A stretch of 64,000 nucleotides of DNA, from contig NZ_JAQV02000007.1 of the NCBI RefSeq assembly GCF_000732485.2, positions 1 through 64,000 on the forward strand, given 5' to 3'. Position 1 is the stretch's first letter; each line of letters opens with the position of its first letter. The notes beneath the pieces were generated by a model, which searched no databases, was not told the DNA's origin, and saw nothing but the letters and a program-made list of their open reading frames with translations. This DNA is from Bacillus sp. SJS. Lineage in GTDB: Bacteria; Bacillota; Bacilli; Bacillales; Bacillaceae. The translations under genes and the position numbers were made by a program. This document shows positions 6,306 to 25,382 of this stretch, piece after piece.

Positions 6306-6368
6306 CGCATAACATCGCGTGCAATCATGACTTCTTCATTCGTCGGAATGATCATAACTTTAACCGGT
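6306..6368. repeat. attL: 63-bp duplicate of the ackA 3' end
   Basis: Perfect 63-bp copy of 24208-24270, which lies inside the end of ackA. Left of it, the minus strand reads on as Met-Arg-Leu-Thr-stop, the ancestral AckA C-terminus. It therefore marks the distal junction of the integrated element with the chromosome. Confidence 0.95.
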
Positions 6369-6450
6369 TCTAAAAACGTTGATTTATCAACCTTTATTCA
6401 TGTTTTCTAGGTTAATAATATCATTTAGGTCATGGTTAGTAAAGGAATAT

Positions 6451-7026
6451 TTATACAGTTTTGCAATTGCAAATCATCAATCCACTTTGAGTTAAATCAA
6501 TGTTTTGTACAGTCCACTTTTTATCCATACTTGGAAACTTAAAATTAATTTTAATCTTTTCCTTATTAACTTTATTGTCCTGAAGCACTAGGATTATTTC
6601 ATTCACTGGTACTCTGATTGCATCTGTAGAATTTACAGAGAACGATTTATTATCAACAATTGCATGAACATAAGTTGGTTCACCAACAATCTCCTCAAAT
6701 ACAGCCCTTCCTAAATCATCATATCCTAGAAATTTACCGTTTGTTATTTCTCCAGGGAATTCAATTACATGATTACACTGTCTCATAAGGGCTTTATACT
6801 TGGCTGTACGCATAGATGAACTCTCGGTAATTGTAAGATATTTAAAGGTCTTATAATCGACTACAGAGCCTCTAGGCACGTTTTGAACCGTATGTATATA
6901 TCTTTCTTCCTGTTCACTTATTAATGGATTAGTAATTATTGCTTCTGTTTCTTTGTCATTAACTTTAACTTGTTCTCCATAGTCCATTATTATAGAAGAA
7001 ACTAATGATTCATCAATGAGTTTCAC
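6451..7026 (-). CDS. probable phage head closure/head-tail joining protein
   Basis: A 191-aa protein with a GTG start behind AAAGGAGG. It begins with a short helix (IDESLVSSIIMDYGEQV) and then beta-rich sequence with a small domain around YKTFKYLTITESSSM and a YKALMRQCNHVIEF stretch, a pattern I associate with head-tail joining or stopper proteins of Bacillus siphophages. It is the last gene before attL and follows two genes of similar type. Recognition is by pattern only; a minor head protein is also possible. Confidence 0.5.
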   Translation of the reverse strand: MKLIDESLVSSIIMDYGEQVKVNDKETEAIITNPLISEQEERYIHTVQNVPRGSVVDYKTFKYLTITESSSMRTAKYKALMRQCNHVIEFPGEITNGKFLGYDDLGRAVFEEIVGEPTYVHAIVDNKSFSVNSTDAIRVPVNEIILVLQDNKVNKEKIKINFKFPSMDKKWTVQNIDLTQSGLMICNCKTV

Positions 7027-7044
7027 TATGAAACCTCCTTTCTA

Positions 7045-7389
7045 TTACCCGTTGAACAGCATAAAGAAATTGGATTCATTATTGACCTGTTCATCCGTCT
7101 TCATTTTTCTAATTTTACTTTCCAATTGATCAATACGAGCCATTAAATTTTCATGAAAGTCAGAAACCGTCATATCGTCTACTTTTACTGTTCTCATAAG
7201 GGATGGATTATTTGCAATTGATTCTAGGATAGATAGTGCTGCAGAGTAGATATTTTTCTTATTAGTGGCTGATTGAGGATTATATTCAGTTAGAGAATCA
7301 ATGTCATTCTCTTGAAGATAAATAACTTTCTCACTTTGATCTAATTCAATCCCTTTGATTTCTAAATCCAATCGTTCTAAATTAATCAT
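7045..7389 (-). CDS. putative head-tail connector/adaptor protein
   Basis: A 114-aa helical protein. I place the start at ATG 7389, behind AAAGGGA and overlapping the previous stop by 8 nt; a longer frame reaches 7422. The run YSAALSILESIANNPSLMR followed by VDDMTVSDFHENLMARI is the helical layout of small phage connector/adaptor proteins that bind the portal. It belongs with the genes on either side in a head-completion cassette. Structural role is inferred. Confidence 0.55.
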   Translation of the reverse strand: MINLERLDLEIKGIELDQSEKVIYLQENDIDSLTEYNPQSATNKKNIYSAALSILESIANNPSLMRTVKVDDMTVSDFHENLMARIDQLESKIRKMKTDEQVNNESNFFMLFNG

Positions 7390-7831
7390 TAATATCATTC
7401 CCTTTGTTATATTGGTAATCATGTTTAATATCTACTGCAAATGCTTCAAGCGTTTCATCTGTTACTGGAAAACCTAGTGATGGATTTTCAGCCCTGTCTA
7501 CCTCATACCATATACCGTCATTATCAAGTAAATATTTTCTGACGATATTCTTAGAGTGCCTTTTCATAAAACCTGAAATGTAACCTGCTCCAGATACTTT
7601 TCTGAAACTTTGATGTTCGATTTTAGATGTACATTCTTGATATGGTAAGTGTTTATGGAAATAAGTTGATAAGCGACCAATGAATTCATCATATTTAACT
7701 TTGTACATTGCATCATATTGATATTGTTGCATTCTTAACATCTCCTTTGAAATTTGATTTTGTTCTTGCGGTGAATAGTTTCGTGATACTCTTCTTCGGT
7801 AAACATCATGATAATTTGAAAAATCTTTCAT
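7382..7831 (-). CDS. phage-type hypothetical protein in the connector cassette
   Basis: A 149-aa basic, Tyr-rich protein. ATG at 7831 has a perfect GGAGGG site 7 nt upstream, which overrules the in-frame GTG 5 codons earlier. The N-terminus (YRRRVSRNYSPQEQNQISKE) is charged and helical, and the centre has a HQSFRKVSGAGYISGF stretch. No family recognised. Tight coupling to the two downstream genes suggests a head-assembly or minor structural role. Confidence 0.55.
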   Translation of the reverse strand: MKDFSNYHDVYRRRVSRNYSPQEQNQISKEMLRMQQYQYDAMYKVKYDEFIGRLSTYFHKHLPYQECTSKIEHQSFRKVSGAGYISGFMKRHSKNIVRKYLLDNDGIWYEVDRAENPSLGFPVTDETLEAFAVDIKHDYQYNKGNDIND

Positions 7832-7851
7832 TGTTTTTCCCTCCACAAAAT

Positions 7852-7875
7852 AAAAAAGCGTCCGAAGACACTTTC
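7852..7875 (-). terminator. terminator after the FxLYD gene
   Basis: Minus strand GTGTC-TTCG-GACGC followed by TTTTTT: a UUCG-capped stem directly after the stop at 7877. It separates the FxLYD gene from the connector cassette, which needs its own promoter or read-through. Confidence 0.75.
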
Positions 7876-7876
7876 A

Positions 7877-8728
7877 TTAGTTAAAATCCATTACATCTAC
7901 TTTACACCTTTTGTATTTGACAGAACTTCTTAATTTAGTCATAACTTCAAATGCTTTTTCTTCACCTGGCAAAATACCCTCATCACCTGCTGCATAAGTA
8001 GTATCCGTGTCAATTACGTTGTTTGATTCATCCAAATAACTAACTTTCAATTGTATAAATGAATATTTCTTATCTCCATTATTTCTAACAGCACCAGTTA
8101 CAATGTTATAATCACCATCTAATTTATAATCCACATCTGTAACTTGGAGAATAGGTGTAGTTTTTGCTGAAGTTGTTTCAACTTTATCTGACCCTGATTT
8201 TTCAATAGCAGAAGCATTCAATTTTTCTTCTTTACCGTGTCCATCATTATAAGTTATCACGTAGTCTTCAGGTTGATATGAACGATCATAATCCGTTGTG
8301 TAGTAACCATCTTTTTTCCATTCAAAGAGACTAATACCATCTAAACTACAATACTTTTTATAACCACACGCAAAATTAATTCCATCATTATTTTCTGTAA
8401 CCATCATTGCTGCTTTACTAATCAAAGAAGCCTTTTGACTGTTATCTAATTCCGAAAAATTTGCATTTACAGATGATAATAAATTGTAAGGGTATGAGGT
8501 CAAGCCATTATATTCAACTGATTCTGCGTTCTCATCTTTAGAAAATTCAAATGAAGAAAAATACTTGCTTAATTCTTTATCTTTGTTTAATTTTTCTTCA
8601 ATTTTGTCCAATGTAGACTCATTAATCGCTACATACGTGTAGTAATACCAGAATCCTACACCTATCAGTCCTATAATAGTAAAAACACCAAGGGTACTCC
8701 TATATTTTCTAAATAACTTTCCCATCAT
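7877..8728 (-). CDS. membrane-anchored FxLYD-domain protein
   Basis: About 283 aa, with tandem ATGs at 8728/8725 behind AGGGGGTG. Residues 9-31 form one transmembrane helix (LGVFTIIGLIGVGFWYYYTY) after a basic N-terminus. The remainder is extracellular by the positive-inside rule. The C-terminal 90 residues (VTDVDYKLDGDYNIVTGAV, then GILPGEEKAFEV) match the FxLYD beta-sandwich of Firmicute surface proteins. Not a virion component by appearance: surface cargo, possibly immunity or superinfection exclusion, which is speculation. Confidence 0.7.
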   Translation of the reverse strand: MMGKLFRKYRSTLGVFTIIGLIGVGFWYYYTYVAINESTLDKIEEKLNKDKELSKYFSSFEFSKDENAESVEYNGLTSYPYNLLSSVNANFSELDNSQKASLISKAAMMVTENNDGINFACGYKKYCSLDGISLFEWKKDGYYTTDYDRSYQPEDYVITYNDGHGKEEKLNASAIEKSGSDKVETTSAKTTPILQVTDVDYKLDGDYNIVTGAVRNNGDKKYSFIQLKVSYLDESNNVIDTDTTYAAGDEGILPGEEKAFEVMTKLRSSVKYKRCKVDVMDFN

Positions 8729-8803
8729 ACACCCCCTATAATTTAACAGTTAAATAATACCATGAAATTATATGGAATATTCATTATTTTCCAATTAAAT
8801 GCA

Positions 8804-8830
8804 CAAAAAGACACTCAAATGATGAGTGCC
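8804..8830 (-). terminator. terminator after the 46-aa gene
   Basis: GCACTCATCATTTGAGTGTC stem on the minus strand followed by TTTTTG, immediately downstream of the stop at 8838. Confidence 0.8.
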
Positions 8831-8837
8831 TAGAGTT

Positions 8838-8978
8838 TTATTTCTTACCTTCTTTTTCTCTCTCTTCCCTTTTACGTTGTTCTCTTTCTCTATTAGCCTT
8901 TTCCTCTTGCTCTCGTCTTTGCCTAATTAACTCCTGTTGTTGTCTTGATAAATGTTGAGTGTCATATCCAAATCCCAT
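8838..8978 (-). CDS. 46-aa highly charged helical protein
   Basis: ATG preceded by GGGAGGTGATATC, an ideal ribosome binding site, and followed at once by a terminator, so this is a genuine small gene. After a short Gly/Tyr start (MGFGYDTQHLSRQQQ) it is almost entirely Arg, Lys, Glu and Gln, predicting a single long helix. No family recognised. It has its own transcription unit between the DUF4145 and FxLYD genes. A nucleic-acid-binding or inhibitor peptide is conceivable. Confidence 0.7.
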   Translation of the reverse strand: MGFGYDTQHLSRQQQELIRQRREQEEKANREREQRKREEREKEGKK

Positions 8979-9048
8979 GATATCACCTCCCTCTGTCCAA
9001 TTTATTTCGACATTTAGGGAGAAAATACCTTGTTAAAAATAGGTAATT

Positions 9049-9906
9049 TTATTTATCCTTTATAAAATCATGATGTTTTAACTCATATATGTCATATAAA
9101 ACTCTATTAATGATTTCAATAATTTCAAATAATTTACTGTACCCTGGACTTTGAATATTATGTATGGCGTTATTTCCAAATTTGATAACACCTTGTAAAA
9201 CTAATGCTTGAGGAAGTAAAATTAACCCGTTCTCGAACAAACCAAAAATTCTCCCACCAAGACTTGTATGTTCTCGTATTATATCTTTATTGTCAGGTAA
9301 CTTTACACCGTTTTTATCATACAAGTGCCCGCCTTTTATATCTAAGTGTGAGCAAATTCCCTCAAGTAATGTTCTTAGCCCTGCAGTACATAAAATAGCA
9401 TGTTTAAAAGAATAAGATTCTATTATTTGATCATATAAATTAGATAAATTTTTAGGAACATTTCTAAATTCTTGAGGGGTAATTTTAAAAGGCCCTTCCA
9501 TTGTTTCAAGTATAGGCTCAGGAGGATACACAGTATATAACCTACCCCAAACGATTTCATCACCGTTCCATTCTGAAGTCTCATCACCCTGAAAATCCTC
9601 AACAAAAGAAATAGAATCACAACCTAAACATTTAGTAATGTGATACTTACATATCCAGTGTTCATGAGATTCTTCATCTGCATATTCCTCATAAGTATTA
9701 ATTACCGACATATTCCTTTTTCCTTTACATTTCCTGCAATAAATCTTTTCACTAAGAATATCCATAGTTTCACATCCGTAAAATTTATGTAACCATTTTA
9801 CTATATTTTCCTTGGGTGTGTAAAAGGGTATGTTACGGCACTCTTTTTTTCGATTAGGGGTATTTATATAAGCAATCCTCATACATTTTATGTATATTTC
9901 ATTCAA
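9049..9906 (-). CDS. zinc-ribbon plus DUF4145 protein, possible defence cargo
   Basis: About 285 aa; no ribosome binding site is visible, so the start (TTG 9906 or ATG 9882) is uncertain. A four-cysteine zinc ribbon occupies residues about 57-100 (CRKCKG ... CLGCDS). The C-terminal half (about 165-275, with LRTLLEGICSHL and GNNAIHNI) matches DUF4145, a HEPN-like helical domain often carried by restriction-associated or other anti-phage proteins. It is isolated between noncoding DNA and a small gene. DUF4145 is likely; a defence role is inference from family and from its position as satellite cargo. Confidence 0.65.
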   Translation of the reverse strand: MNEIYIKCMRIAYINTPNRKKECRNIPFYTPKENIVKWLHKFYGCETMDILSEKIYCRKCKGKRNMSVINTYEEYADEESHEHWICKYHITKCLGCDSISFVEDFQGDETSEWNGDEIVWGRLYTVYPPEPILETMEGPFKITPQEFRNVPKNLSNLYDQIIESYSFKHAILCTAGLRTLLEGICSHLDIKGGHLYDKNGVKLPDNKDIIREHTSLGGRIFGLFENGLILLPQALVLQGVIKFGNNAIHNIQSPGYSKLFEIIEIINRVLYDIYELKHHDFIKDK

Positions 9907-10257: not shown

Positions 10258-11619
10258 TTACACTTCTTCTTCCATATCTTTACCAACTTTATCCACACTA
10301 TCCACAACTTGTTTTCCTCTGTCCTCACTCTTAATCTTATTCAATTCCATCTGGACATCAGTTGTATATGGACTATGAGACAAAATACTCTCTAAACTAA
10401 TCGCTGCCATCTCATTCAATGACTTCAGATTTTCAATAATCTCTTTATCATTAGCCGGTCTAGCATACTGGAATACGCAATCTAGGCTCTCATATTCGTC
10501 TTCATTAAATTTGATACCTTTGTATCCAAGTAATTTTCTAACCTTCTCAAAACGCTCTTCTAGTCCCTCACGCATGTACTGTTCATTCATTCCCGCTTTA
10601 ATATCAGCCAATGAGAACAATAATTTAATACTTACCTCAGACAAGTTACTAATGTCTGTCTTATTCATACTGACTGCAGGTGTATTGCTTATATCTAATA
10701 AGGATTGAACCAACGTCTTATAAATGGTTTGGAATGATTGGTAATCCAATTGATTACTTACCATCTTGAAGTCACTACCATCATCCAATTGAATCCCTTG
10801 ACCAACAATATAAGATGAGATACCTTCACCCTTTAACTGCTGTCCAATGGCTACAGGGATAGGATTGTGATGCTTATAGAAGGAATCAGTAAACTTACTA
10901 ATCAAATCCTCCATTGAATCAAGAATAGTTATCCAATCCTCTAACTCTGATCTACCTTCATTAGTATCTAACTCATTTAAGTTATGATAAACAATCGGTA
11001 ATCCACTTAGATTCGCATATTGTCCTATCGACTTTAAGTTTCCACCTAGATTGCTGTACTTATAAACAACCTCATCAGTGAATACTGTATGGTAATCTAC
11101 TCCATCAAGCACATAACTCTCAATAAAGCAGAGTAAGTTATTCTCGTTATCATAAATAGGAAAGGAAGTAGATGGATCAATTAATTTACTTTTAATTACA
11201 CCTTTATCCATATAGACATATTCAGCACACATGCCATACTTATTTACCTTATCAAGTATCTGAAGGTTTAATCTGTCATATTTACCTTTCTTACTCACCT
11301 TTTGATATTCCTTTACTACTCTTTCATTACCAGTAAGCGTAATAGGATTCTGAAGCAAGTAAGACGTTTGGAAGTTAAGTAAAGTCTTAGCATATTGAAG
11401 AACAATCTTTCTCGGCTCAAACTCTTTACCATTGTAGTTATAAGAAGGTGATTGAAGAATCTTATGCTTACCACTTAAATAATCCTTCAAATTCATCACT
11501 TCGTTAACTCTTGTTTGTGCTGCTACAGTACTAACTTCTTCTAAGAACCATTCAGGACGGTTCTCATGATAAACTCTTACATACTGTTCAAATTTACTTT
11601 GTAACTCGCTTTTCACCAC
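10258..11619 (-). CDS. phage portal protein (SPP1 gp6-like)
   Basis: 453 aa. The start is one of two adjacent GTGs (11619 or 11616) behind AGGAGG. The N-terminal part (LQYAKTLLNFQTSYLLQNPI) and the stem/clip region with NTPAVSMNKTDISNLSE are typical of Gram-positive siphophage portals, which form the dodecameric ring at the capsid vertex through which DNA is packaged. It directly follows TerL, as in most tailed phages. Length is normal. Confidence 0.88.
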   Translation of the reverse strand: MVKSELQSKFEQYVRVYHENRPEWFLEEVSTVAAQTRVNEVMNLKDYLSGKHKILQSPSYNYNGKEFEPRKIVLQYAKTLLNFQTSYLLQNPITLTGNERVVKEYQKVSKKGKYDRLNLQILDKVNKYGMCAEYVYMDKGVIKSKLIDPSTSFPIYDNENNLLCFIESYVLDGVDYHTVFTDEVVYKYSNLGGNLKSIGQYANLSGLPIVYHNLNELDTNEGRSELEDWITILDSMEDLISKFTDSFYKHHNPIPVAIGQQLKGEGISSYIVGQGIQLDDGSDFKMVSNQLDYQSFQTIYKTLVQSLLDISNTPAVSMNKTDISNLSEVSIKLLFSLADIKAGMNEQYMREGLEERFEKVRKLLGYKGIKFNEDEYESLDCVFQYARPANDKEIIENLKSLNEMAAISLESILSHSPYTTDVQMELNKIKSEDRGKQVVDSVDKVGKDMEEEV

Positions 11620-11664
11620 TTAACCTCCTAATTGAAAGAAGGTCAGGTTCACCAAGAACCTAAC

Positions 11665-13269
11665 CTAAATCTCAACATAATATTTTGCTTGTTTCATTGC
11701 CTGACAACTCATAGCGACACTAATTACTAAGTCATCATGGAGATTCTTGCCCTTTTTATTGCCTAGTTTCCCTTGATTTTCTTGGTAAATTTTCATCTCT
11801 TCAAGCGTCTGGATACATTCTATATTGATGAGTCCTAACTCGAAGTTTTCCTTTAAATCATTTATTAAAATAGGCTTAGTTGCTGTAGTAGTCATAAAGC
11901 CTAATTGAAGTTTCTTTTTGCCCTTCTGATCAAATATCTTCTGCTTCAAGAGATTCATGTATCCATACTCTTTCCTTAACTTCTCAAGCAATGGCAATCC
12001 GTAACTGTTTCTCTCAACGCAAATGTAAGCATAATTAAAAAACCTGCCTAACTCGTTCACTAATTCAGCGAACCTGTAGACAGGAATATCATTTGCATAT
12101 AAAGAAGCCATTTGTTGCCCCTCTGAATTGAATATACTCATGGTTGAATTATCATTATCCCCACCAGTACCCGAAGCAACGTCAACGCCTCCATAGTGCC
12201 TTAATGAGCGTTTAGGAAGGTGATAGATAAACAGATTCTTGTTGATCAGAGGCTTTAATTTGTCAGGTAAATCATTATAAATTTCTTTCGTTTCCATCGG
12301 TTGAATAGCAAACTGCAACCGTTCAATAATCTTCTTAGTATCAAATACGGCATTATTACTTTCTGCAAAGGCTTCATCAGGGGTTGTAGGGAATTCCCTT
12401 TGAAACTTTTCTAATGAATTCGTCTCTATGTAATACCTTCTAAACATCAATTGTCTGAAGTTTGCTTTGTATTCTTCATACAATATTTTCTCATCGTGTT
12501 CAAGGTCGTTCTTGGACATTCTGCGCCCTTTATTATGAACTTTAAACCATTCCTCTGCTTCATCAAAAGAGTGCTTAAATTGCTTACTGTAAGCCTCTGC
12601 AAGCCATGAATAGAAGTGTGCCTTCCATACGCTCTCACGTCCTCTGTAAGCCTTCTTAAACATCTCCTGATATGTATTGAACCCTAGTGCTGTAGACTCG
12701 ATAATAATCTTACTGTACGGGTTCTTAGCAAGTGCTGGAATGGCTGTTGCAATAATTTCTTCCTGGGCTTCATTTGGATACTTAGCCATCTCTGAAAAAT
12801 GGATTAACTCAAATGTATTCCCTGAAATACTATCCTCTCCACCTGCTGTAGCAACTACAATCCTTGAGCCATTTACCATATAGATTTCATCTCGGTTGCT
12901 GATTTCTAACTTAGGAAATAGAGTGGGGTATTTATCATGAGGAAGTGAATTATACATCTTTTTAATCCGTCTTAACAAACTCTGAGTAACCTTATTATGC
13001 TGAGTCATAATCATATATGAGGTATCAGGTTTAGTGATTGCTGAATACAACATATAAGCCAGTGACCACGTAGTGAAGCCTATTTGCCGCCCTTTGAGAA
13101 TGATATTATATTTAGTCATTTCTTTTGTGAATTGTTCCTGTTCTGGATTAAGGATGAATGGAACACTTTCACCATTATTATCTATGATTTTAATGAAATT
13201 CTTTGCAAATAAAGGAAATGAGTCCATTACCTTTTTCAATTTTTCTTTGTTAGATTTTATAATAGCCAT
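11665..13269 (-). CDS. phage terminase large subunit
   Basis: 534 aa, ATG behind GGGGGTG. The N-terminal ATPase has a Walker A-like loop KGRQIGFTT (59-67) and a Walker B/catalytic glutamate at IHFSE (156-160). The C-terminal half carries an RNase H-like nuclease domain starting at GGVDVASGTGGDND. It packages DNA into preformed heads together with TerS and the portal, and cuts concatemers. The motifs are intact, so the element can probably package its own DNA. Confidence 0.92.
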   Translation of the reverse strand: MAIIKSNKEKLKKVMDSFPLFAKNFIKIIDNNGESVPFILNPEQEQFTKEMTKYNIILKGRQIGFTTWSLAYMLYSAITKPDTSYMIMTQHNKVTQSLLRRIKKMYNSLPHDKYPTLFPKLEISNRDEIYMVNGSRIVVATAGGEDSISGNTFELIHFSEMAKYPNEAQEEIIATAIPALAKNPYSKIIIESTALGFNTYQEMFKKAYRGRESVWKAHFYSWLAEAYSKQFKHSFDEAEEWFKVHNKGRRMSKNDLEHDEKILYEEYKANFRQLMFRRYYIETNSLEKFQREFPTTPDEAFAESNNAVFDTKKIIERLQFAIQPMETKEIYNDLPDKLKPLINKNLFIYHLPKRSLRHYGGVDVASGTGGDNDNSTMSIFNSEGQQMASLYANDIPVYRFAELVNELGRFFNYAYICVERNSYGLPLLEKLRKEYGYMNLLKQKIFDQKGKKKLQLGFMTTTATKPILINDLKENFELGLINIECIQTLEEMKIYQENQGKLGNKKGKNLHDDLVISVAMSCQAMKQAKYYVEI

Positions 13270-13312: not shown

Positions 13313-13708
13313 TCAATCAAGCATTAATCCGTCATCTTCTTCTATTTCATCTTCTACACTGTTAAATGTTTTGGCTGCCATTTTAGCATTGGCCTGTATA
13401 TCCTTTTGCAAAGTTAAAAAGAGACGAATTGATTTCTCGTCTCCCTCTTTGGCTTTATTCACCGTTATTTTATATATCTCGTCAAAATCATCAGCAATCT
13501 TACTTTCCAGAAGTAGCATGAGCAAGTTTTTATATTGTGCTGTCCGTTCCCATTTAACAAATCCATCAAGGCTCTTCCTGTTTACTTCTCTCATAAAGTC
13601 CTCTGCTGACTTCTTAGGCAGATCACGTTTAAATCTAATGTCATGTTTCCATGAGAAATATAATTTCTTTTCATTGGGTAACTGTTCCAATGCCTCGTAT
13701 ATATTCAT
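13313..13708 (-). CDS. probable terminase small subunit
   Basis: 131-aa charged helical protein directly upstream of TerL. No ribosome binding site: the ATG overlaps the stop of a 45-aa gene (ATGA), so translation is coupled. The middle contains a helix-rich segment FMREVNRKSLDGFVKWERTA, and the C-terminus is very acidic (EDEIEEDDG), both common in TerS, which recognises pac or cos DNA. The call rests mainly on position, size and charge. Confidence 0.65.
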   Translation of the reverse strand: MNIYEALEQLPNEKKLYFSWKHDIRFKRDLPKKSAEDFMREVNRKSLDGFVKWERTAQYKNLLMLLLESKIADDFDEIYKITVNKAKEGDEKSIRLFLTLQKDIQANAKMAAKTFNSVEDEIEEDDGLMLD

Positions 13709-15067: not shown

Positions 15068-15247
15068 TTAGTTTTTGTATTGCTTGTACTCTTCAAGTGC
15101 TTGCTGCAACTCACTATTGATGTAATAAAGTGAGAACATTTTTTGTGATTTTGGCTCAATTGCCACGCAAATGAAGTTGATTCCTTTGGATTTAAGGAAA
15201 TCCGACACGTTTTTGTTATAAACAAAATGAAAATTTGATCTGTTCAC
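15068..15247 (-). CDS. 59-aa phage protein (DUF5659-like)
   Basis: GTG start behind GAGGAGGTAGCAAG. The product runs from a short N-terminal beta segment (FHFVYNKNVSDFLKSKGINF) to YYINSELQQALEEYKQ. This lay-out, in which a short sheet is followed by one helix, resembles the DUF5659 family of small phage proteins. It sits between the DHH-like and Rep-like genes, suggesting an early-gene role. The family call is tentative. Confidence 0.6.
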   Translation of the reverse strand: MNRSNFHFVYNKNVSDFLKSKGINFICVAIEPKSQKMFSLYYINSELQQALEEYKQYKN

Positions 15248-15259
15248 CTTGCTACCTCC

Positions 15260-16099
<840 letters not shown>

Positions 16100-16525: not shown

Positions 16526-16538
16526 TCTTGTTATGTAA

Positions 16539-17456: not shown

Positions 17457-17864
17457 TCAAATTCCGAAAAGCGACTTAATCATTCCTTTTGTATTACCTG
17501 TTTGTTTTGCCTGGTCATATTGAGTTGTTTGCTTATGGTCGCTTGGCACATAACCATTGGCAACTTTAAACTCATCCATTAAGATATTGAACTTCTCAAT
17601 CTTTTCTTTGAGTTGATCAGTATTTTCAGCCACAAAAAAATCAGCAAACTTTTCAAGCCCTGCTGATTTCAACTCAATATTAACTTCTTTATTCCATAGT
17701 TCTTGTTGCTTTTCTTGTAATGCTTTTTCTGCTTCTGATACTTCTTTAGGTTTGAATTGTAAAAGTTCATCCCTTTCAGATTGAATAGGGTTTAATTCCT
17801 TTTCAATCCACTCTTGCTTTAATGAATCTAATTGCTCTTGAGTAAAACTAATTAGTTCTGACAT
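17457..17864 (-). CDS. phage scaffolding protein (DUF4355-like)
   Basis: 135 aa, ATG behind GAGGAGGTTAAAAA. Residues about 5-70 are a continuous Glu/Lys/Gln-rich coiled coil, and the C-terminus is short and polar (KGMIKSLFGI), as in small scaffolding proteins that direct HK97 capsid assembly and bind the shell through their C-terminus. It lies immediately upstream of the capsid gene. Family membership is by composition and position. Confidence 0.8.
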   Translation of the reverse strand: MSELISFTQEQLDSLKQEWIEKELNPIQSERDELLQFKPKEVSEAEKALQEKQQELWNKEVNIELKSAGLEKFADFFVAENTDQLKEKIEKFNILMDEFKVANGYVPSDHKQTTQYDQAKQTGNTKGMIKSLFGI

Positions 17865-17880: not shown

Positions 17881-18168
17881 TTATTTACTGAATTGAACTT
17901 TCACCTTTCCTCTGGCTAGGATAGGTTTATTGTTGTAACTGCCAGCAAACTCGAATACAAATGACTCGTTCAATCCACTGGCAGTAGTTTCATAGTCATA
18001 AAAATAGACACCAACTTTTTCTCTGTTGCTGTCTGCAATAGGTATAGTTTCAAGATGTAATCCTGTCATGTCATAAATACATAACTCAACATTCTCAGGA
18101 TCAACTAAATTCCCTGAAAATGATTTAAATTCTACCTTTAATCTAACTGTGTCACCTGAAAGTACCAT
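17881..18168 (-). CDS. small capsid-accessory (Ig-like) protein
   Basis: 95 aa; start overlaps the previous stop (TAATG). It is all-beta in appearance: GDTVRLKVEFKSFSGNLVDP, then FYDYETTASGL and ARGKVKVQFSK at the end. This pattern occurs in head-associated or fibre-linked beta-sandwich proteins of Bacillus phages. Its place between a GLUG fibre-like gene and the scaffold suggests a capsid decoration or fibre-attachment role. Confidence 0.6.
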   Translation of the reverse strand: MVLSGDTVRLKVEFKSFSGNLVDPENVELCIYDMTGLHLETIPIADSNREKVGVYFYDYETTASGLNESFVFEFAGSYNNKPILARGKVKVQFSK

Positions 18169-19472
18169 TAATCAATCACCTCCCAAGAAGAAGGATTTTC
18201 CATATACGATACTTTACTTATATTTTCAATCATATAAGCCCTAGACGGGGTTTCTAGAGCATATACATGAGCATTAATAACTCTAGTACTAAGAGGATAA
18301 AGGACGCTTATATCGCTTCCTAGAGGGCTTAACGAGGACAATAAATGCTTAAAGGTTTTACTTTTTCTTTCAACTGATGATGAAATTGGATTTATAAAAG
18401 TTATCACGTTGAACTGACCACTTCTAACAGTTCTAGTGGACTTCTCAGCGACTGAAAATATAGGCAATCCATAACTCTCAGACAATCTTAAAGTCGCTAT
18501 ATGACGCTCAGAATTAGTGTAAACAGGTTGTTGGAATGTCTCTAATTGTTTAACAGATTTCTGGCTTTTGGCTGCTAGAGAATTTGTAGAATTTGTATAG
18601 GCATTAACAGAAATTGTTCCCTTGTTTGCAACTATAGGTACTCCAAACGCTCTCAATGAAGGGTAATCATTTTTGATTAACCATGTGTTTGTAAAATCCC
18701 AATTTGTATATGTGGATTGGTTTTTCATTTCAATAGTTGTCTTTCCGGAAATACCTATTGTAGGTGAAGTTTCTTGGTTAGAAGATTGTTTATCAAAAAA
18801 GCAGTTTTCAAACAAAATATTCGAATTACTTCTGATAAAACCTGCAAAGCCACTTTTACCGTTATAAGAAGATGAATTAGTGTATATTACTCTTCCAGAA
18901 CTGTAGGAATTCCTAACAACACTATTACTATCTACTGACCCTATTAAGCCCCCACCATAATACTCTGAAGTGATTGTTACTTGATTACTTGAGTAACAAT
19001 TGTGAACTATTCCTGTATCAATCTTACCGATCAATCCACCAGACTCATCTTTTGCTTTAACACTTCCATTGATGGAAAAGCAGTTCTTTATAGTTGCTCC
19101 ATAAGAGAAACCTACTAACGATCCTGCATAACTACAATTCCCTGCATTATTAGTATTTATTTGAACATTCTCCATACCAACATTTTGTAAAGTTCCGTTA
19201 TGGAATTGTCCAAACAAACCTAAATAAATTTCATTATTGTTCTTGTTTACAGTTAAGTTTTTAATTCTAAATCCCTTACCATCAAAGTTTCCAGAAAAAC
19301 CATTAACCCAGTTATTCCCGTCATAAAAAGAGATAGGATTCCAATTTCCCCAACTACTCATATCTATATCGTTGCCTAATTGATATGAAGCCGTTAAGTT
19401 ATTCCTTACATTGTTTAAGTCGTCTGGTGTTTTTACTATGTAAGGATCAGATTGTGTTCCTGCACCTAACAT
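18168..19472 (-). CDS. GLUG-repeat head-fibre/adhesin-like protein
   Basis: 434 aa, ATG behind TAGGTGG. Residues about 60-235 contain at least four GLUG-type repeats (GLFGQ, GSLVGFSYGATIKNCF, GGLIGKIDTGIVHNCY, GGLIGSVDSNSVVRNSY), which fold as a beta solenoid in adhesins. The C-terminal 170 residues are Ser/Thr/Asn-rich without repeats. There is no signal peptide, so in this operon it is best read as a virion surface fibre. Without a tail module it would decorate the head. Confidence 0.7.
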   Translation of the reverse strand: MLGAGTQSDPYIVKTPDDLNNVRNNLTASYQLGNDIDMSSWGNWNPISFYDGNNWVNGFSGNFDGKGFRIKNLTVNKNNNEIYLGLFGQFHNGTLQNVGMENVQINTNNAGNCSYAGSLVGFSYGATIKNCFSINGSVKAKDESGGLIGKIDTGIVHNCYSSNQVTITSEYYGGGLIGSVDSNSVVRNSYSSGRVIYTNSSSYNGKSGFAGFIRSNSNILFENCFFDKQSSNQETSPTIGISGKTTIEMKNQSTYTNWDFTNTWLIKNDYPSLRAFGVPIVANKGTISVNAYTNSTNSLAAKSQKSVKQLETFQQPVYTNSERHIATLRLSESYGLPIFSVAEKSTRTVRSGQFNVITFINPISSSVERKSKTFKHLLSSLSPLGSDISVLYPLSTRVINAHVYALETPSRAYMIENISKVSYMENPSSWEVID

Positions 19473-19481: not shown

Positions 19482-19832
19482 CTAAACTTTCGGTACTTGA
19501 ATAGAATGAATAACTGTAAGTTCATCTTGTGCTGTTTCCATTGTAAAAGGTGAAAAGGATTCTACACTGTAAGCATTACCACCTGAAGCCACACTGTAAA
19601 TGGCACTAGAAGCAAAAGTCTTAGGAAGAGTCATTCCTGAATCAGAACCTTTAACTATCACTTGAAGTTTAAGGGTTTGACTTCCTGCAGTATGTTGCCA
19701 TGTCACTCGACTATCTGTTGGAGACAGACGTATAATTGCAACTCCTGAATTATCTCTTAATTCTATGTACTTCCAATTACTTTGAATAAAATCTCTGATA
19801 CTCTGATAACCTTGTATATTTATTTCTGCCAT
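19482..19832 (-). CDS. beta-rich phage structural protein
   Basis: 116 aa; its ATG overlaps the holin-like stop (TAATG) and has GAAGGGGG upstream. The first 25 residues are amphipathic (YQSIRDFIQSNWKYIELRD), and the rest alternates hydrophobic and Ser/Thr residues as in beta sandwiches of fibre or decoration proteins. No family named with confidence. It is co-transcribed with the GLUG, scaffold and capsid genes. Confidence 0.55.
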   Translation of the reverse strand: MAEINIQGYQSIRDFIQSNWKYIELRDNSGVAIIRLSPTDSRVTWQHTAGSQTLKLQVIVKGSDSGMTLPKTFASSAIYSVASGGNAYSVESFSPFTMETAQDELTVIHSIQVPKV

Positions 19833-20047
19833 TATTTAACCCCCTTCAATTGTGTAATTTGGCTTTCTAATCGTTCAAGTGAATGAACAATGCGATCCTG
19901 TGCTTCATTTTGTTTCTCAATTTGAGCAATTAACTTTTGTTCCCTTTCAATCGCTTCTTTTCTCGTACTAGTTAGCAGCCATATAAATAAAACTGCAAAC
20001 ACCCCTTGTGAAGCAAATTGTTCGATAGGAATGGTAGTTAAATCCAT
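19832..20047 (-). CDS. BhlA/UviB-family holin-like peptide
   Basis: 71 aa from ATG 20047, which has GGGAGGTG 6 nt upstream; a longer frame to 20095 lacks a site. One N-terminal membrane helix (QGVFAVLFIWLLTSTRKEAI, residues 12-31) is followed by a charged coiled coil, the BhlA/UviB plan found in bacteriocin and phage lysis regions. No endolysin is nearby. As first gene of the capsid operon it could be a lysis aid or an unrelated membrane peptide. Confidence 0.75.
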   Translation of the reverse strand: MDLTTIPIEQFASQGVFAVLFIWLLTSTRKEAIEREQKLIAQIEKQNEAQDRIVHSLERLESQITQLKGVK

Positions 20048-20110
20048 TTTAAACACCTCCCTGGGCGGATTAATCGAAGACATACGAGGACTCATGTATA
20101 ATTATGAGTA

Positions 20111-20142: not shown

Positions 20143-20389
20143 AGAAAGAGGAGGTTGTAAAAATGAAAGAACCGTAAACTAGGCTCTAGATACTGGAAGG
20201 GGAATACCCTTCATTCACTGTCATTGTTTAATGGCAGCCAATGAAACTTACTCTATATTCATAAGTACTGTTTACCTGAATTCCTTACAGTTACACTGAT
20301 ATCAAGGGTTTAAAGGCTTGTCTAAAACTCGAGAAATATATTTTCTTTTGTACTTGTATATCCACCCTGATAAATACCACAGAACTACT

Positions 20390-20602
20390 TCACACACTTG
20401 CTTCCATATACAAAAATAGACTCATAGTCTTATAAATGTTGATTTTAAAGGGTTCGTGACTAATTCTATTTGGTAAAGTTTTCTTACTCCCCAATAGGGA
20501 ACCAATTTCTTCATGTGAAAAACTCATTAAATCCTTGCTACTATTGAGTTTATCATCAGTGAGTAATAAACTTTTGTGACTTTTTCGGTTTATTTTAACC
20601 AC
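20390..20602 (-). CDS. 70-aa hypothetical protein
   Basis: GTG start with AAGGGAAGG about 10 nt upstream, inside a family D repeat. The product is Ser/Lys-rich with a possible short helix (MSFSHEEIGSLLGSKKTLP). Its 3' third overlaps one copy of the 50-bp repeat also found at 20793-20840 outside any gene, so the coding status is doubtful. No family recognised. Confidence 0.35.
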   Translation of the reverse strand: MVKINRKSHKSLLLTDDKLNSSKDLMSFSHEEIGSLLGSKKTLPNRISHEPFKINIYKTMSLFLYMEASV

Positions 20603-20610
20603 TATTTTAT

Positions 20611-21665
20611 TACCTTCCCTTAAAGACGATTATCTCTAAGAAGAGAATATGCCCCAAAAACCCTTTACTATCAAGGTATGAAGGCATCTTGTTCTATTTA
20701 GATTAAGATTTATTTTTGCTATTCAGCGTTACAACTCATATCCACCCTGATAAATACGTTCTATTTGCTAACATTTTTCTTTCTTCCATATTACAAAAAT
20801 AGACCCATATGCCTATAAGTGTTGGTATTAAAGGGTTTTTAGCGAACTCTAAGTGTCCACATTATTTTTATCGTTTTTTACTTCTGTATCCCTTCCCTTA
20901 AAGACAATTATCTAGATTACGCAAATCCCTTGCAAACCGTTGGTACATAAAGGGTTTTAATATCTTCATGAAAAATCATGGTGTTCGTTTTGCTAACCTT
21001 CCTTTATAGGAAATTATCTTTATAACTATAAGATGTTAGAAACACTGATATAGCACCGTTTCTACTAAAATGAAAATTTAATCATGTTTATTTTCGCTAG
21101 TCTTCCTTTATAGGCAATTATAAGAATTAAAAGAAAGGTCATAAACCTTGATATAATAGGAATAGCGACCCATGAATGGAACGCTGAGTTTCATGAACCA
21201 CTATTCTTCTTATTAAATTTTATTTTCCTTAATTTAGCCTTTTCTTTTTTTATCTCTTCTTGACACTCTAAACATTGCGCCTGTCTTTGTTTGGTAGGTT
21301 CAAATCTTTCATTACACCTGTCGCAAAGAATACTATTTCCTAAATTCTGTTTTAAGTTTGAAACCATTACATCACCAAAACTATTCCATAAAGTAGTTTT
21401 ATGACTTGATTTCTTTTGGTTATACAAATACTCCACTAACACATTAGTTACATGCACCGGATCATTAAATACTTTTAGGATTTCTTCTCTTATGACTTGA
21501 TAAACATAGGTATAATTTTCTGAACCGCCATCTGACTTATTCATCATAAACCGCTTTTTCTTATCTAATTCTTCGTATTTTTCTATGATTTTCAAATTAA
21601 TATTTTGCAATTCTAATGGACTTTTCTCCACTTTCTCACTACCTTTCCCTTATGACGATTATATG
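20611..21665 (-). repeat. repeat family D, leader/SD module
   Basis: Minus-strand ATAATCGTCTTTAAGGGAAG-type words at 20611-20635, 20890-20913, 20996-21019, 21100-21122 and 21641-21665. The AAGGGAAGG part serves as Shine-Dalgarno for the two genes starting at 20602 and 21631. The other three copies precede only very short open frames. Confidence 0.7.
21191..21631 (-). CDS. zinc-ribbon protein of the satellite
   Basis: 146 aa from a GTG with AAGGGAAAGG upstream (family D leader). The N-terminal 95 residues are helical; residues about 103-124 hold a four-cysteine zinc ribbon (CDRCNERF ... CLECQ), followed by a very basic tail (KKEKAKLRKIKFNKK). That combination suggests DNA or RNA binding. It is the only robust gene between int and the holin-like gene, so an early regulatory or replication role is likely. 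Confidence 0.65.
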   Translation of the reverse strand: MEKSPLELQNINLKIIEKYEELDKKKRFMMNKSDGGSENYTYVYQVIREEILKVFNDPVHVTNVLVEYLYNQKKSSHKTTLWNSFGDVMVSNLKQNLGNSILCDRCNERFEPTKQRQAQCLECQEEIKKEKAKLRKIKFNKKNSGS

Positions 21666-22363
21666 CAATTAAGTAGTAACCACCAGAAAGCCTTATTCTA
21701 TACTGTTTTGTGTAGCATACCACTGAAACTGGTTATTATTATTTTCGCTACTTCTTCATAAGTACTATTTACCTGAATATCTTATAAACCCATTAGTATC
21801 AATATCTTAAAGAGTTTTCTATTTAGGTAGCATGGTTCTTTTACTCCACTCTGATAAATACGTCCTAATGCGTTACATCTCTAAATTTCTTCTCTTTATC
21901 ATAAGTACTGATTACCAACTTTGCAACTGAACTCAATAATATCAAGGGTTTGGAGTGTTTTCTATTTATACACGCTTTCTCATTTGTCTGTACTTAATAT
22001 CCACCCTGATAAATACCATCAACTGTCCACACAGTCACTTTGTACCCACCCTGATAAATACCACTCTATTATTGGACATTCCTAGTTCTTCTTTTACTGT
22101 CTCTCCATAAGTACTCTTTACCTCAATTGCTCAGAAATCTCTATATATCAACTGGTTTCGCAGTGAAGTTTGTGTCCACGTTTTCCTTTTGAACCATTTA
22201 AAAACTCCTGCTCTGATCCTTGCCTTCACATTAACCCTTTTCCAATATTCCAGTAAAAGTTTTCCTTATCTTTATCACGTTTTTTCGCCTTAAAATTTGA
22301 CTTGGCACTTAGGCTCTTTTACTTTTGGTTGAGGTGTATGGACAACGGCTTGGAGGCAAAGTT

Positions 22364-22408
22364 GTTGCCTATGTTCAAATGACAAAAAATCAAATGAACA
22401 TAGACAAC
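22364..22408. repeat. 14-bp inverted repeat
   Basis: GTTGCCTATGTTCA (22364-22377) and TGAACATAGACAAC (22395-22408), one mismatch, 17-bp spacer. Possible operator or hairpin in the intergenic region left of int. A second pair, AGCCCCTT / AAGGGGCT, lies at 22743-22786. Confidence 0.6.
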
Positions 22409-22829: not shown

Positions 22830-22866
22830 GAGGCTTGGTGCAGCGAACACCTTGCCTCATTTTTTA
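22830..22866. terminator. terminator at the end of the int operon
   Basis: GAGGC-TT-GGTG / CACC-TT-GCCTC. On the plus strand it is followed by ATTTTTT; on the minus strand it begins right after the stop at 22864 but has a weaker TTTGTTT tract. Probably bidirectional. Confidence 0.65.
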
Positions 22867-23058
22867 TTCTGGAAAGAAAGTCTTCACTTCATTTCTGAAA
22901 TAATCAAAGAAAACAGCCATTTCCTCCCCGTTTCTATCTACAATACGCTTACCATAGGGAAGTACTTTAAAGTCCACTACTACCACACTAGACACGTCAA
23001 AATTAGCGTTAATCCAGTCCATTACCTTCATTTCATACTCATTTATAGTTGCGATCAT
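22864..23058 (-). CDS. 64-aa protein coupled to integrase
   Basis: The ATG overlaps the int stop (ATGA), and AAGGAGG lies at the right distance inside the end of int. The product is acidic with an alternating hydrophobic centre (VSSVVVVDFKVLPYGKRI). It has no evident HTH. Co-translation with integrase makes a recombination-directionality or accessory role possible, but the sequence does not show it. Confidence 0.65.
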   Translation of the reverse strand: MIATINEYEMKVMDWINANFDVSSVVVVDFKVLPYGKRIVDRNGEEMAVFFDYFRNEVKTFFPE

Positions 23059-24080
23059 TTTTTAGTCCTCCTTGTTTTCCTTTTATCTGATTCCTCAATT
23101 AAATTTAATGGTGAGTATTGTGCATGTTGCTGTTTAACTGTCTGATCCAAGATGTGAGCATATCGAGAAGTAGTAGTTAAATCTGCATGACCTAAAATCG
23201 TTTGTAATACACGCATTGATCCATTTTGTCTAAGAAACATTTCTGATGCCGTATGGCGAAATAAATGGGGATGTATTCTTTTCTCAAATCCTGCCCGTTT
23301 AACAATTTCTCGAAAATGCTTTCTGAATGTATCTGGCTTCAAAGGTTTACCATGATTGGTAAGGAAGATATATTGACTGGCAAACTCTTCTGTTTCCTCA
23401 TTCAGTTCATGAATTAGTTTCAATGTTTTTCTAGTAACAGGTACAATTCTCACTTTGCCATTTTTGGTTTGCTGAAAAGTAACAAACTTCTGTTCATGGC
23501 TAACATCTTCTTTTTTGAGGGAAAGAACCTCATTAATTCTTCCAAAGGAATCAAGGAGAACATGTAAAATGACGTACTCTCTAAAATCGCTGTATAACCC
23601 CTTATTTAATACTTTGAAGAGTTTCTTTATTTCAGGAATAGACAGGGTTTCGATTTTCTTTTCTCTTTCCTTTAAGTTGTTCATACTCTCAAAGATGTTC
23701 TCTTCTACAACTTCTTCACCAACTAAAATGTTAAACGCTGCCTTTGCATAGCCAATATAGGTATTAACTGTCCCCTTAGAAACACCTTTTGGCTTCGACT
23801 TACGGTACTTGTGATTCTTAAACTGAATCTTTTCATTCAACTGCCAATACACAAACTCTCTAGCATCATCAGCCGTTAACATGGCAATATCCGTTTTCTC
23901 TCCAAAGAATTGATCAAAGTCATTGAACACTTTTTCATAATTCATAATGGAATTTGGACTTAACCCTTCAAGTTGTTTAATTTTCAAAACAATATTTCTT
24001 GCGTCATCAATGCTAAAAACCTTTGATGCTAATTGATTAGTGTATCTCTTTGTTTTTCTATAAATTGGATTTTTAGACAC
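23055..24080 (-). CDS. int: tyrosine recombinase/integrase
   Basis: 341 aa from GTG 24080, chosen because GGGAGG lies 11-12 nt upstream and because a terminator hairpin occupies the longer frame (to 24164). It has an N-terminal SAM-like core-binding domain (about 25-125) and a C-terminal catalytic domain with all residues: Arg181 (GRINE), Lys206, His272-x-x-Arg275 (HLFR), His298 (LGHAD) and Tyr307. It lies about 130 bp from attR, as expected for an integrase acting on the adjacent site. It probably recombines attP with the 63-bp ackA core. Confidence 0.93.
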   Translation of the reverse strand: MSKNPIYRKTKRYTNQLASKVFSIDDARNIVLKIKQLEGLSPNSIMNYEKVFNDFDQFFGEKTDIAMLTADDAREFVYWQLNEKIQFKNHKYRKSKPKGVSKGTVNTYIGYAKAAFNILVGEEVVEENIFESMNNLKEREKKIETLSIPEIKKLFKVLNKGLYSDFREYVILHVLLDSFGRINEVLSLKKEDVSHEQKFVTFQQTKNGKVRIVPVTRKTLKLIHELNEETEEFASQYIFLTNHGKPLKPDTFRKHFREIVKRAGFEKRIHPHLFRHTASEMFLRQNGSMRVLQTILGHADLTTTSRYAHILDQTVKQQHAQYSPLNLIEESDKRKTRRTKK

Positions 24081-24086
24081 TAAAAA

Positions 24087-24130
24087 AAGCAACCTCCCTT
24101 CATGTTTAGAACACGAAAAAAGGTTGCTTT
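24087..24130 (-). terminator. terminator/attenuator hairpin overlapping the int ribosome binding site
   Basis: Minus strand AAAGCAACCT (24130-24121) pairs with AGGTTGCTTT (24096-24087), followed by TTTTT. The 3' arm includes most of the int Shine-Dalgarno sequence (24093-24098). It can end ackA transcription and at the same time block int translation. Confidence 0.75.
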
Positions 24131-24194
24131 CATTTGTTTTTAGGTAATGGTTAGTCAGACGCAATAATTTGCAAGAAAGCCTCTACAAAGCCTA

Positions 24195-25382
24195 TTATAG
24201 AGCCATTCGCATAACATCGCGTGCAATCATGACTTCTTCATTCGTCGGAATGATCATAACTTTAACCGGTGAATGAGGATAGCTTACGAAGCGATCGTCG
24301 CCGAATGTGTCGTTCAGGGCTGGATCCCAGTAAATACCCATGAATTCAAGGCCGCGCAGCACGCGAGCACGCACCTCTGCACTGTTTTCCCCGATTCCGG
24401 CAGTAAAGATAATCGCATCCACTCCGCTCATGCGGGCAGCGTAGGAACCGATGTATTTATGGATACGGCTTGCAAACACCTCAAGAGCCGTCTCCGCCCG
24501 CTCGTTTCCTTCTTTTGCGGCCGTCGTGATGTCGCGAAGGTCGCTTGATAATCCGGAAACTCCAAGCAGTCCGCTTTTCTTGTTCAGGATATTCAATACT
24601 TCATCTGCAGAAGATCCTGTTTTTTCCATGATGAATGGGATAAGCGCCGGATCGATATTTCCTGACCGTGTTCCCATTGCAACACCTGCCAAAGGGGTGA
24701 AGCCCATTGACGTATCAATAGATTTCCCGCCTTCAATGGCTGCAATACTTGCACCGTTTCCAAGGTGGCAGGAAATCAGGCGCAAATGCTCAAGAGGTCT
24801 GCCGAGCATTTCGGATGCACGTTCAGAAACGTATTTATGAGATGTTCCGTGAAATCCGTATTTACGAATGCCGTATTTTTCATAATACTCGTATGGCAAG
24901 CTGTAAAGGAAGGATTGATCAGGCATCGTCTGATGAAAAGCCGTATCAAATACTGCTACAGCCGGTACGTTTGGCAGAACTTCCTGGAATGCTTTAATTC
25001 CAACAATATTGGCAGGGTTGTGAAGAGGCGCCAAGTCGGAAAGTTCTTCAATTGCAGCTAACGTTTCTTCCGTTATTGGAGCAGAATCGCTGAATTTTTC
25101 GCCGCCATGTACAACCCGGTGGCCGATTCCTTCAATTTCAGAAAGAGAAGAAATGATATGAAGATCCGTTAGCTTGGAAAGAAGAATTTTAACCGCAACC
25201 GCGTGGTCCGGGATATTTGTTGTTTCTGTTTGCTTTTCGCCATTTACAGTAATGGTAAATGTAGCATTTTCAAGACCGATTCTTTCTACAAGCCCTTTCG
25301 TTACTACATCTTCGCTGGGCATATCAAACAGCTGGAATTTAAGAGAAGAACTCCCAGCGTTAATCGCAATTATTTTAGCCAT
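24195..25382 (-). CDS. ackA: acetate kinase with element-supplied C-terminus
   Basis: 395 aa; reversibly converts acetyl phosphate and ADP to acetate and ATP in overflow metabolism. The ASKHA signature NAGSSSLKF (residues 7-15), HRVVHGGE and the [10 protein letters not shown] segment are intact, and length is normal. The last 21 codons lie in the 63-bp attR core. Past it the reading frame ends Met-Ala-Leu-stop, whereas the attL side keeps the ancestral Leu-Thr-stop, so integration replaced only the final residues. The enzyme should stay functional. A cre-like site lies upstream. Confidence 0.96.
24208..24270. repeat. attR: 63-bp core within the ackA 3' end
   Basis: Identical over all 63 bp to 6306-6368. 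Sequences diverge at both ends. It encodes the stretch ending VMIARDVMR of AckA. Confidence 0.95.

Follow-up and report, generated by a model that had tools for sequence, protein, structure and literature searches.

We analysed a stretch of 64,000 nucleotides of Bacillus sp. SJS (the window). An element of 17,902 bp was found in ackA between perfect 63-bp direct repeats. Its features are as follows (family matches with E-values in brackets).

6306..6368, no strand: left att repeat, identical at 63/63 bases to 24208-24270, flanked on its outer side by the displaced native end of ackA.
6451..7026, minus strand: p191, head-closure (stopper) neck protein by predicted fold.
7045..7422, minus strand: p125, probable head-to-tail adaptor, adjoining the stopper gene p191.
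7382..9906, minus strand: variable region with p285 (phrog_1305 8.7e-19), p46, p283 and p154.
10258..11619, minus strand: portal, SPP1 gp6-like (PF05133 2.6e-72).
11665..13269, minus strand: TerL (PF03237 7.2e-08, phrog_2 5.7e-32).
13313..13708, minus strand: probable TerS, 131 aa, immediately ahead of TerL, present in 46 fetched loci.
14074..15024, minus strand: rep316, replication-initiator-like (phrog_19047 6.2e-70, annotated as transcriptional regulator).
15068..15247, minus strand: p59b, small protein whose gene forms a pair with rep316.
15260..16072, minus strand: p270, conserved protein, in 34 fetched loci.
16276..16455, minus strand: Cro/CI-type HTH regulator (PF13560 6.5e-07).
16539..17399, minus strand: major capsid protein, SU10 type (PF17236 4.1e-59, phrog_1328 2e-35).
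17457..17864, minus strand: p135, probable scaffold from its location ahead of the capsid gene.
17881..18168, minus strand: p95, small protein belonging to the fibre-like module (phrog_18294 1.3e-10).
18168..19472, minus strand: GLUG434, surface or fibre-like protein with a conserved C-terminus (PF07581 1.6e-10).
19482..19832, minus strand: p116, fibre-anchor-like beta protein, its fold resembling fibre and collar proteins.
19832..20095, minus strand: BhlA holin-like protein (PF10960 1.5e-06, 28.5 bits against a cut-off of 22.6).
20256..22151, minus strand: repeat-rich region, candidate origin or operator array, with GTACTTATG four times and TTTATCAGRGTGG five times.
21191..21631, minus strand: p146, a separate protein homologous to the C-terminal part of RNA polymerases of the YonO type, similar to SPbeta YonO.
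22864..23058, minus strand: p64, small ORF that follows int, a candidate excisionase by position only.
23055..24164, minus strand: tyrosine integrase (PF00589 5.7e-35, phrog_1 6e-52), start codon uncertain.
24208..24270, no strand: right att repeat, within the ackA 3' end.

The identity of the att repeats did not extend past 63 bp. Three genomes were fetched for comparison with the insertion site. The joined window flanks aligned in one piece with a same-species genome (G004; 3,503 columns, 98.7%) and a same-genus genome (G001; 3,501 columns, 90.7%), indicating an empty site in both, and aligned with the third (G005) only as two pieces. The element swaps the last ackA codons, which read ...RDVMRLT* with the flanks joined and ...RDVMRMAL* as found. 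G+C was 0.31-0.36 in 2-kb steps fully within the element and about 0.40-0.48 outside. The initial annotation had described an island bounded by perfect att repeats with an intact integrase gene, and both descriptions were borne out. An integrase and an att-bounded chromosomal insertion, as expected of the islands called capsid-forming PICIs (cf-PICIs), were present.

The calls of capsid, portal, TerL and integrase were upheld by Pfam and PHROGs. Candidates for the scaffold and TerS, also named in that annotation, occupied the expected places and were identified by position: the single Pfam match of p135 was below the cut-off (DUF4355, Gp46 scaffold, E 0.41), and the probable TerS, which matched no TerS family in Pfam or PHROGs, was assigned from position and conservation. 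Of the proposed connectors, p191 has a predicted stopper fold, and p125 is a probable adaptor from its location and by resemblance. In a Foldseek comparison of the predicted p191 structure, PilZ-type proteins ranked top, phage neck chains were among those that followed, and no E-value fell below 0.001; the stopper reading came from VIA re-alignment of these lower-ranked matches. A PHROG result was also counted in its favour. PDB sequence profiles gave nothing credible for p191, p125, p116 or p95. A major capsid, portal, TerL and head-tail connector of its own, as in cf-PICIs, were found in the element.

TerL relatives were 62-83% identical to the window copy in an alignment of 24 sequences, and p125 was 56-74% identical in 28 relatives. 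Median dN/dS was 0.094 for TerL, 0.126 for the portal, 0.128 for p125 and 0.139 for the major capsid protein, with values near 1 in single pairs for the major capsid protein, p191 and p116. Against 50,697 phage records, TerL gave 830 matches, all below 60% identity (26-28% for the 30 listed), and p116, p125 and p191 gave none at E 0.01. Podovirus-style phage names appeared among the TerL and capsid matches listed.

The 20 window proteins scanned, a set without the small ORFs p46, p70, p64 and p59b, gave no good match to a tail-tube, tape-measure, baseplate or endolysin family in Pfam or PHROGs. Weak matches were those of p191 to a minor tail protein (phrog_2551, E 0.077), of one relative's p95 to a baseplate hub (phrog_196, E 0.0027) and of one relative's p125 to a tail protein (phrog_2837, E 0.024). 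The 47 unlabelled ORFs of at least 70 aa from seven bounded relatives matched 17 Pfam families, none of them named for tail or lysis; nor was any of the 25 listed of 39 PHROG families, which mostly lack a description. No HNH endonuclease or head protease family was found in the 20 window proteins or, by Pfam, in the 47 ORFs. Two tests for a helper in the window's own genome identified none: the only PF10145 tape measure lies on an 18.5-kb circular contig, and no full YonO was found. The claim that the element carries no tail or lysis gene was narrowed to tail tube, tape measure, baseplate and endolysin, because a BhlA holin-like protein and a fibre-like trio (p116, GLUG434 and p95) are present.

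The BhlA-like protein was 40% identical to SPbeta YomB. p116 was also similar to predicted minor tail proteins, and its Foldseek search against the PDB returned nothing credible. The GLUG434 profile matched PDB 3n6z (E 3.5e-29); its GLUG part was missing from four relatives in the alignment. All 26 p95 members matched phrog_18294, and a p95 homologue was close to the holin of Bacillus phage vB_BcoS-136. Since p116 and GLUG434 were not recognised in some relatives (L037, L039, L041, L203 and L204), fibres are not essential to the plan. p116 and BhlA could be part of an unrecognised minimal tail or lysis system, a point against reading the element as a satellite.

Fifteen of 20 distinct chromosomal relatives had the same plan between att repeats of 40-81 bp lying 13,994-17,049 bp apart, with a longest ORF of 550 aa; no att repeat was found in the other five. 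The plan recurred at differing insertion sites and in other Bacillales, which makes a satellite that borrows tails probable. The family comprised 18 loci in named genomes and, with the window's own record included in each count, 27 TerL loci and 73 p125 contigs in IMG/VR, p125 in 18 genomes of the order (397 searched), and TerL in 4 genomes of the family (80 searched). Among the 15 att-bounded relatives and the 73 contigs, none was found with the head module joined to a tail module. Only two of the 73 contigs exceeded 23 kb; the extra length was, in one (G461), an adjacent prophage that has an integrase and a terminase of its own and, in the other (G462), a tailed phage beside a p125 that looks decayed. 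Evidence of an excised or free form came from two metagenome contigs of relatives, not from the window copy: L089 reads through attP, and L111 has an 86-bp terminal overlap and closes as a circle. Alignment A1 held 24 sequences, with the window replacing L003 and with L017, L026 and L027 set aside; A2 to A5 held 28/32, 28/33, 21/29 and 25/31 relatives, and A6 held 16/19 plus three chosen by position.

rep316 also showed weak replication-initiator and DnaD-like matches in PHROGs and was 46% identical to a protein of Geobacillus virus E3. The p59b-rep316 pair is adjacent in that virus and in the neighbour prophage on G461, although the former is a 141-kb phage and the latter has an endolysin and its own terminase (26% identical). 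p270 matched nothing in Pfam or PHROGs, and p285, p283 and p154 nothing in PADLOC. p64 had relatives in six fetched loci (53-60%). Both repeat motifs also occurred in L011 and L031, and TTTATCAGRGTGG in L045. As SPbeta repressor sites the repeats were rejected: in SPbeta 1-90000, the part counted (90001-134416 lay outside the count), GTACTTATG occurred once and TTTATCAGRGTGG not at all, so no link to SPbeta is claimed from them. A SurA sRNA candidate at 16491-16559 was discarded (27 bits against a gathering score of 100), and promoter-like sites (81) were hardly above the mean of shuffled sequences (74.7).

p146 aligned with residues 708-819 of SPbeta YonO (36% over 113 aa, E 1e-21), carries a cysteine motif that is zinc-ribbon-like in appearance, and was matched in 24 of the 50,697 phage records. 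Its match is confined to the C-terminal part of YonO, and it lacks the full length and the catalytic aspartates of such a polymerase. In two relatives, the corresponding slot ahead of the head genes holds a full-length YonO-like polymerase, in both cases with the D.DGD motif, which is presumably catalytic. Among the 397 genomes of the order, YonO occurred in 11, with zero overlap with those carrying p125; the two counts apparently cover the same genomes, as their handles are identical, and this non-co-occurrence neither supports nor refutes either side.

We consider the element a capsid-forming phage satellite, similar in its working to cf-PICIs, which a temperate helper mobilises, and dependent on a helper for tail and lysis, with a probability of about three in four. 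This reading, proposed in the initial annotation, was supported and, as far as could be tested, stood up to the search for tail or lysis genes among its proteins and for relatives with a tail module; "PICI" in the strict sense is not claimed. Its helper and particles are inferred. Helper infection or prophage induction would lead to excision, and rep316 would start replication. TerS and TerL would pack the element's DNA into small heads, probably in the headful mode. A tail made by the helper would join the neck (portal, p125 and p191), and helper lysis would free the particles. The module of BhlA, p116, GLUG434 and p95 would form fibres on the head or neck and may help attachment. In an ancestral form, the head genes may have been transcribed by an element-encoded YonO-type polymerase, of which the window would keep the C-terminal part, p146.

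According to PMC10803314, cf-PICIs are integrated islands of about 14 kb on average, with Bacillaceae among the reported groups. PMC10690885 describes their own capsid, portal, TerS/TerL and connectors, tails supplied by the helper, and HNH endonuclease and head protease among their parts. The element, compared by description, resembles them as an integrated island with its own head, packaging and connector genes and no recognised tail tube. It differs in its SU10-type capsid and probable scaffold and adds a fibre-like module and YonO-type polymerase parts; membership is not claimed, because HNH and protease were not found. The Streptomyces satellites MulchRoom, whose small head is joined to a tail consistent with that of its helper, and MiniFlayer, with short fibres and binding to its helper's neck (both from PMC10690885), likewise have their own encapsidation genes. 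However, they lack key replication genes and use virulent helpers, whereas this family belongs to Bacillales and has an initiator-like gene. No Streptomyces phage was among the 18 capsid matches in the phage records, a collection that may lack MulchRoom and MiniFlayer. SPbeta shares with the family YonO, homologous to p146 and to the relatives' full-length proteins, and YomB, similar to the BhlA-like gene, but it is a phage of 134 kb that encodes a tape measure, its TerL similarity is not useful (E 0.27), and the repeat motifs are not common to the 90 kb read. The literature searched contained no description of this type of element, which is weak evidence of novelty as most journals lie outside its coverage; the element in PMC12324425 is a different one of 4.6 kb.

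More tentatively, and with perhaps one chance in four, the element may belong to a separate lineage of capsid-forming satellites whose ancestor had its own single-chain YonO-type polymerase for the head genes. The p146 remnant would redirect or block the YonO of an SPbeta-like helper in favour of satellite heads, and neck fibres would widen the range of cells or helpers.

It is unlikely that the element is a tail-less hitch-hiker, which would do without a helper tail and bind a helper virion or the cell through a short neck or head fibres of its own (p116, GLUG434 and p95), in the manner of MiniFlayer (PMC10690885). The fibre-like module recurs in relatives, the p116 fold resembles fibre and collar proteins, and stopper homologues of distant relatives carry, at the C-terminus, long repeats of Ig-like appearance as judged by eye; however, p116 and GLUG434 went unrecognised in the five relatives named above. 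A stopper, moreover, closes a neck that normally receives a tail.

We give slightly less credence to a minimal temperate phage that is autonomous, its short tail and lysis protein having escaped recognition. Its replication and packaging genes, holin-like protein and the podovirus-style names among the listed matches would suit such a phage, but the stopper fold predicted for p191 would not, no ORF exceeds 550 aa, and no nozzle, internal virion or endolysin family was found in the 20 window proteins or the 47 ORFs of seven relatives. The phage records also held no near relative.

A deletion derivative or decayed prophage, to which the missing tail genes and broken genes in L040 and L202 might point, is nearly refuted by 15 of the 20 relatives, in which long att repeats enclose the same compact plan, by the low median dN/dS of the head genes and by the same-species genome without the insertion, in agreement with the earlier view that the element is not decayed. 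Equally improbable is a domesticated gene-transfer particle serving the host, which the combination of head and packaging genes with no recognised tail would allow, but which the integrase, att sites, initiator-like gene, empty site and patchy distribution of TerL oppose.

Capsid-forming satellites were discovered recently. As such satellites, the family provides a compact, apparently intact and widespread Gram-positive set with clear att sites and an empty site, and with a capsid type for which neither HNH nor protease was recognised. It would be self-sufficient in head formation, replication and, in some relatives, perhaps transcription, and would borrow tail and lysis, making the question of satellite dependence testable in Bacillus. 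The link to YonO gives a concrete prediction on helper identity and late-gene control. The forms with a full, a shortened and no recognised polymerase would constitute a natural gradation of decreasing self-sufficiency.

The element measures 17,902 bp from att start to att start. The repeats that bound it were described as perfect in the initial annotation, and the two 63-bp copies are indeed identical, the right copy lying in the 3' part of ackA. When the window flanks were joined, they aligned without interruption to a genome of the same species (G004, 98.7%) and to one of the same genus (G001, 90.7%); in a third genome (G005), they aligned as two pieces, with no single uninterrupted alignment. 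The ackA product ends in ...RDVMRLT* with the flanks joined versus ...RDVMRMAL* in the window. Judged from these reading frames, the element supplies its own last ackA codons, leaving AckA whole. The TerL and capsid genes each occur once in the host genome.

Main features of the element; every named element gene is on the minus strand.
6306-6368: left att repeat, 63 bp
16539-17399, minus: capsid (PF17236, 4.1e-59)
minus: portal (PF05133, 2.6e-72)
minus: TerL (PF03237 and phrog_2)
minus: integrase (PF00589)
24208-24270: right att repeat, 63 bp

From the integrase, the order is int, p64, p146, a repeat-rich stretch, BhlA, p116, GLUG434, p95, p135, capsid, HTH, p270, p59b, rep316, p45, probable TerS, TerL, portal, a variable region, p125, p191, and att. 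In the integrase ORF as mechanically called, a strong terminator-like hairpin (24085-24131) falls among the first codons, and the gene may therefore truly start further inside. The head genes proposed earlier stood by family match for capsid, portal, and TerL, as did the integrase; TerS, the scaffold (p135), and the adaptor (p125) are probable assignments made from position. p191 is a neck protein with a predicted head-closure (stopper) fold; its homologue in distant relatives (L101, L105, L107, L085, and others) is 302-570 aa long, with C-terminal repeats of Ig-like appearance (by eye), as though on display at the neck.

The earlier statement that tail and endolysin genes are missing needs qualifying: no endolysin was recognised in the element, but BhlA is holin-like, scoring above the Pfam cut-off. 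Weak matches pointing to tail parts were given by p191 (phrog_2551, E 0.077), by p125 of one relative (phrog_2837, E 0.024), and by p95 of one relative (phrog_196, E 0.0027). We searched 47 unlabelled ORFs of at least 70 aa from seven bounded relatives against Pfam and PHROGs. None of the 17 Pfam families matched concerned tail or lysis, nor did any name among 25 listed of the 39 PHROG families, most of which are undescribed. The longest ORF in bounded relatives was TerL (550 aa), and thus no tape measure of usual size is hidden.

A TerL profile found 18 loci in named genomes, including Neobacillus, Fictibacillus, Anoxybacillus, Domibacillus, Terribacillus, Piscibacillus, Heyndrickxia, Brevibacillus, Paenibacillus, Bacillus sp. 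PAMC26568 (L045), and others; one Chryseobacterium and one Bacteroidales MAG are possible mislabels among the locus labels. In IMG/VR, TerL gave 27 loci and the p125 profile gave 73 (median contig 15.8 kb; 55 of 73 at 12-20 kb and two above 23 kb), the window's own record being included in both. Again counting the window's genome, p125 was present in 18 of 397 genomes of the order (14 of 135 genera) and TerL in 4 of 80 genomes of the family. Merging 12 and 13 regions, with five judged duplicates, left 20 distinct chromosomal relatives, 15 of which have att-like repeats of 40-81 bp spaced 13,994-17,049 bp apart. No repeats were found in L033, L045, L193, L194, and L202; some of these loci may stop short of the left end, and two of them, L193 and L202, appear disturbed. 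The recurrence supports the earlier view that the element is not a decayed prophage; it belongs to a family and is not a relic.

Several relatives show further features. The capsid proteins form two groups, with about 78-86% or about 23-26% identity to the window copy, and that of L044 has 56%; the split is not mirrored by neighbouring genes, which suggests exchange of the capsid gene. In the Heyndrickxia element (L193 and L047), large ORFs are inserted between and within head genes, and the portal is split. In the Anoxybacillus pushchinoensis element, TerL is interrupted by a group I intron (L036:10137-10371; RF00028, scoring 70.4 bits against a gathering threshold of 50); it was missing from the gathering-mode results and came up in another search. 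The TerL match is similarly longer in L026 and L027. An att-bounded Paenibacillus element contains a reverse transcriptase (L041:3182-4180, PADLOC RT_VI, 6.3e-71), possibly retron-type defence cargo.

In the metagenome contig L089, p191 is followed by a stretch resembling a tRNA 3' half (by eye) and then int, with no intervening chromosome, which reads as attP read-through. The two ends of L111 share an exact 86-bp overlap, and closing it would give a 16,269-bp circle. Apparent free forms were seen for these relatives, not for the window copy. In L153, p125 and p191 run into a YonO gene and then TerL; no integrase was recognised there.

YonO is the phage RNA polymerase responsible for transcribing the late structural and lysis genes of SPbeta (PMC5467207). 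p146 matches its residues 708-819 (36%, E 1e-21), and in a phage collection of 50,697 records p146 matched 24, of which one is a Psychrobacillus phage and the other 23 are Bacillus phages. In two relatives, the corresponding slot ahead of the head genes holds a full-length YonO-like polymerase: L153 (804 aa, with 47% identity to YonO and a profile match that starts slightly upstream, across one stop) and L106 (882 aa). Both have the D.DGD motif, which we take to be catalytic. The end of a third lies at the contig edge of L150, and L039 (Brevibacillus) has only the short C-terminal form (118 aa), as in the window. These matches come from five distinct element records; the slot was visible in 76 loci, a count that includes duplicates and one SPbeta locus, and most of the fetched relatives had no YonO match. 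No further trace was found at E <0.1 in 20096-23060, nor was YonO found elsewhere in the host genome.

A YonO phage is present on both p125 contigs above 23 kb. On one of them (G461), the element is preceded by a separate prophage that encodes an integrase, the p59b-rep pair, YonO (phrog_8308, 1.6e-149), head closure Hc3, and an endolysin; no PF10145 match was found in this prophage. The tandem of element and prophage, with a common p59b-rep pair and a prophage YonO-like polymerase, was seen in L186, L187, and L142 (G461). On the other contig (G462), a seemingly decayed p125 lies next to a phage that encodes a YonO-like protein and a tape measure. Two of two is notable because YonO was found in only 11 of the 397 genomes, although the association is post hoc and from a small sample; the p125-bearing and YonO-bearing genomes do not overlap. 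The adjacency hints at a helper type or a gene source, without proof. The host genome also has an 18,506-bp contig (L160) that, given its 170-bp terminal overlap, is probably circular at 18.3 kb. Among its products are a tape-measure protein (PF10145) and one that by eye is late-control-D-like, encoded next to replication- and resolvase-like genes; the contig is probably a plasmid-like circle with a partial tail module in the same cell.

The sequence data establish integration, the head genes, the predicted neck fold, and the existence of a family. We propose that a helper would trigger induction, that the element's DNA would be packaged by a headful mechanism, as the TerL type and the lack of a recognised HNH suggest, that the tail would be taken from the helper, and that helper lysis would free the particles. 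cf-PICIs have been reported from Bacillaceae (PMC10803314), and a capsid-forming satellite here is thus not new in kind. An HNH and a head protease are among the cf-PICI components described in PMC10690885, whereas neither was found in the element. We therefore take the element to be new as a variant, one that would work like a cf-PICI and whose membership is unproven.
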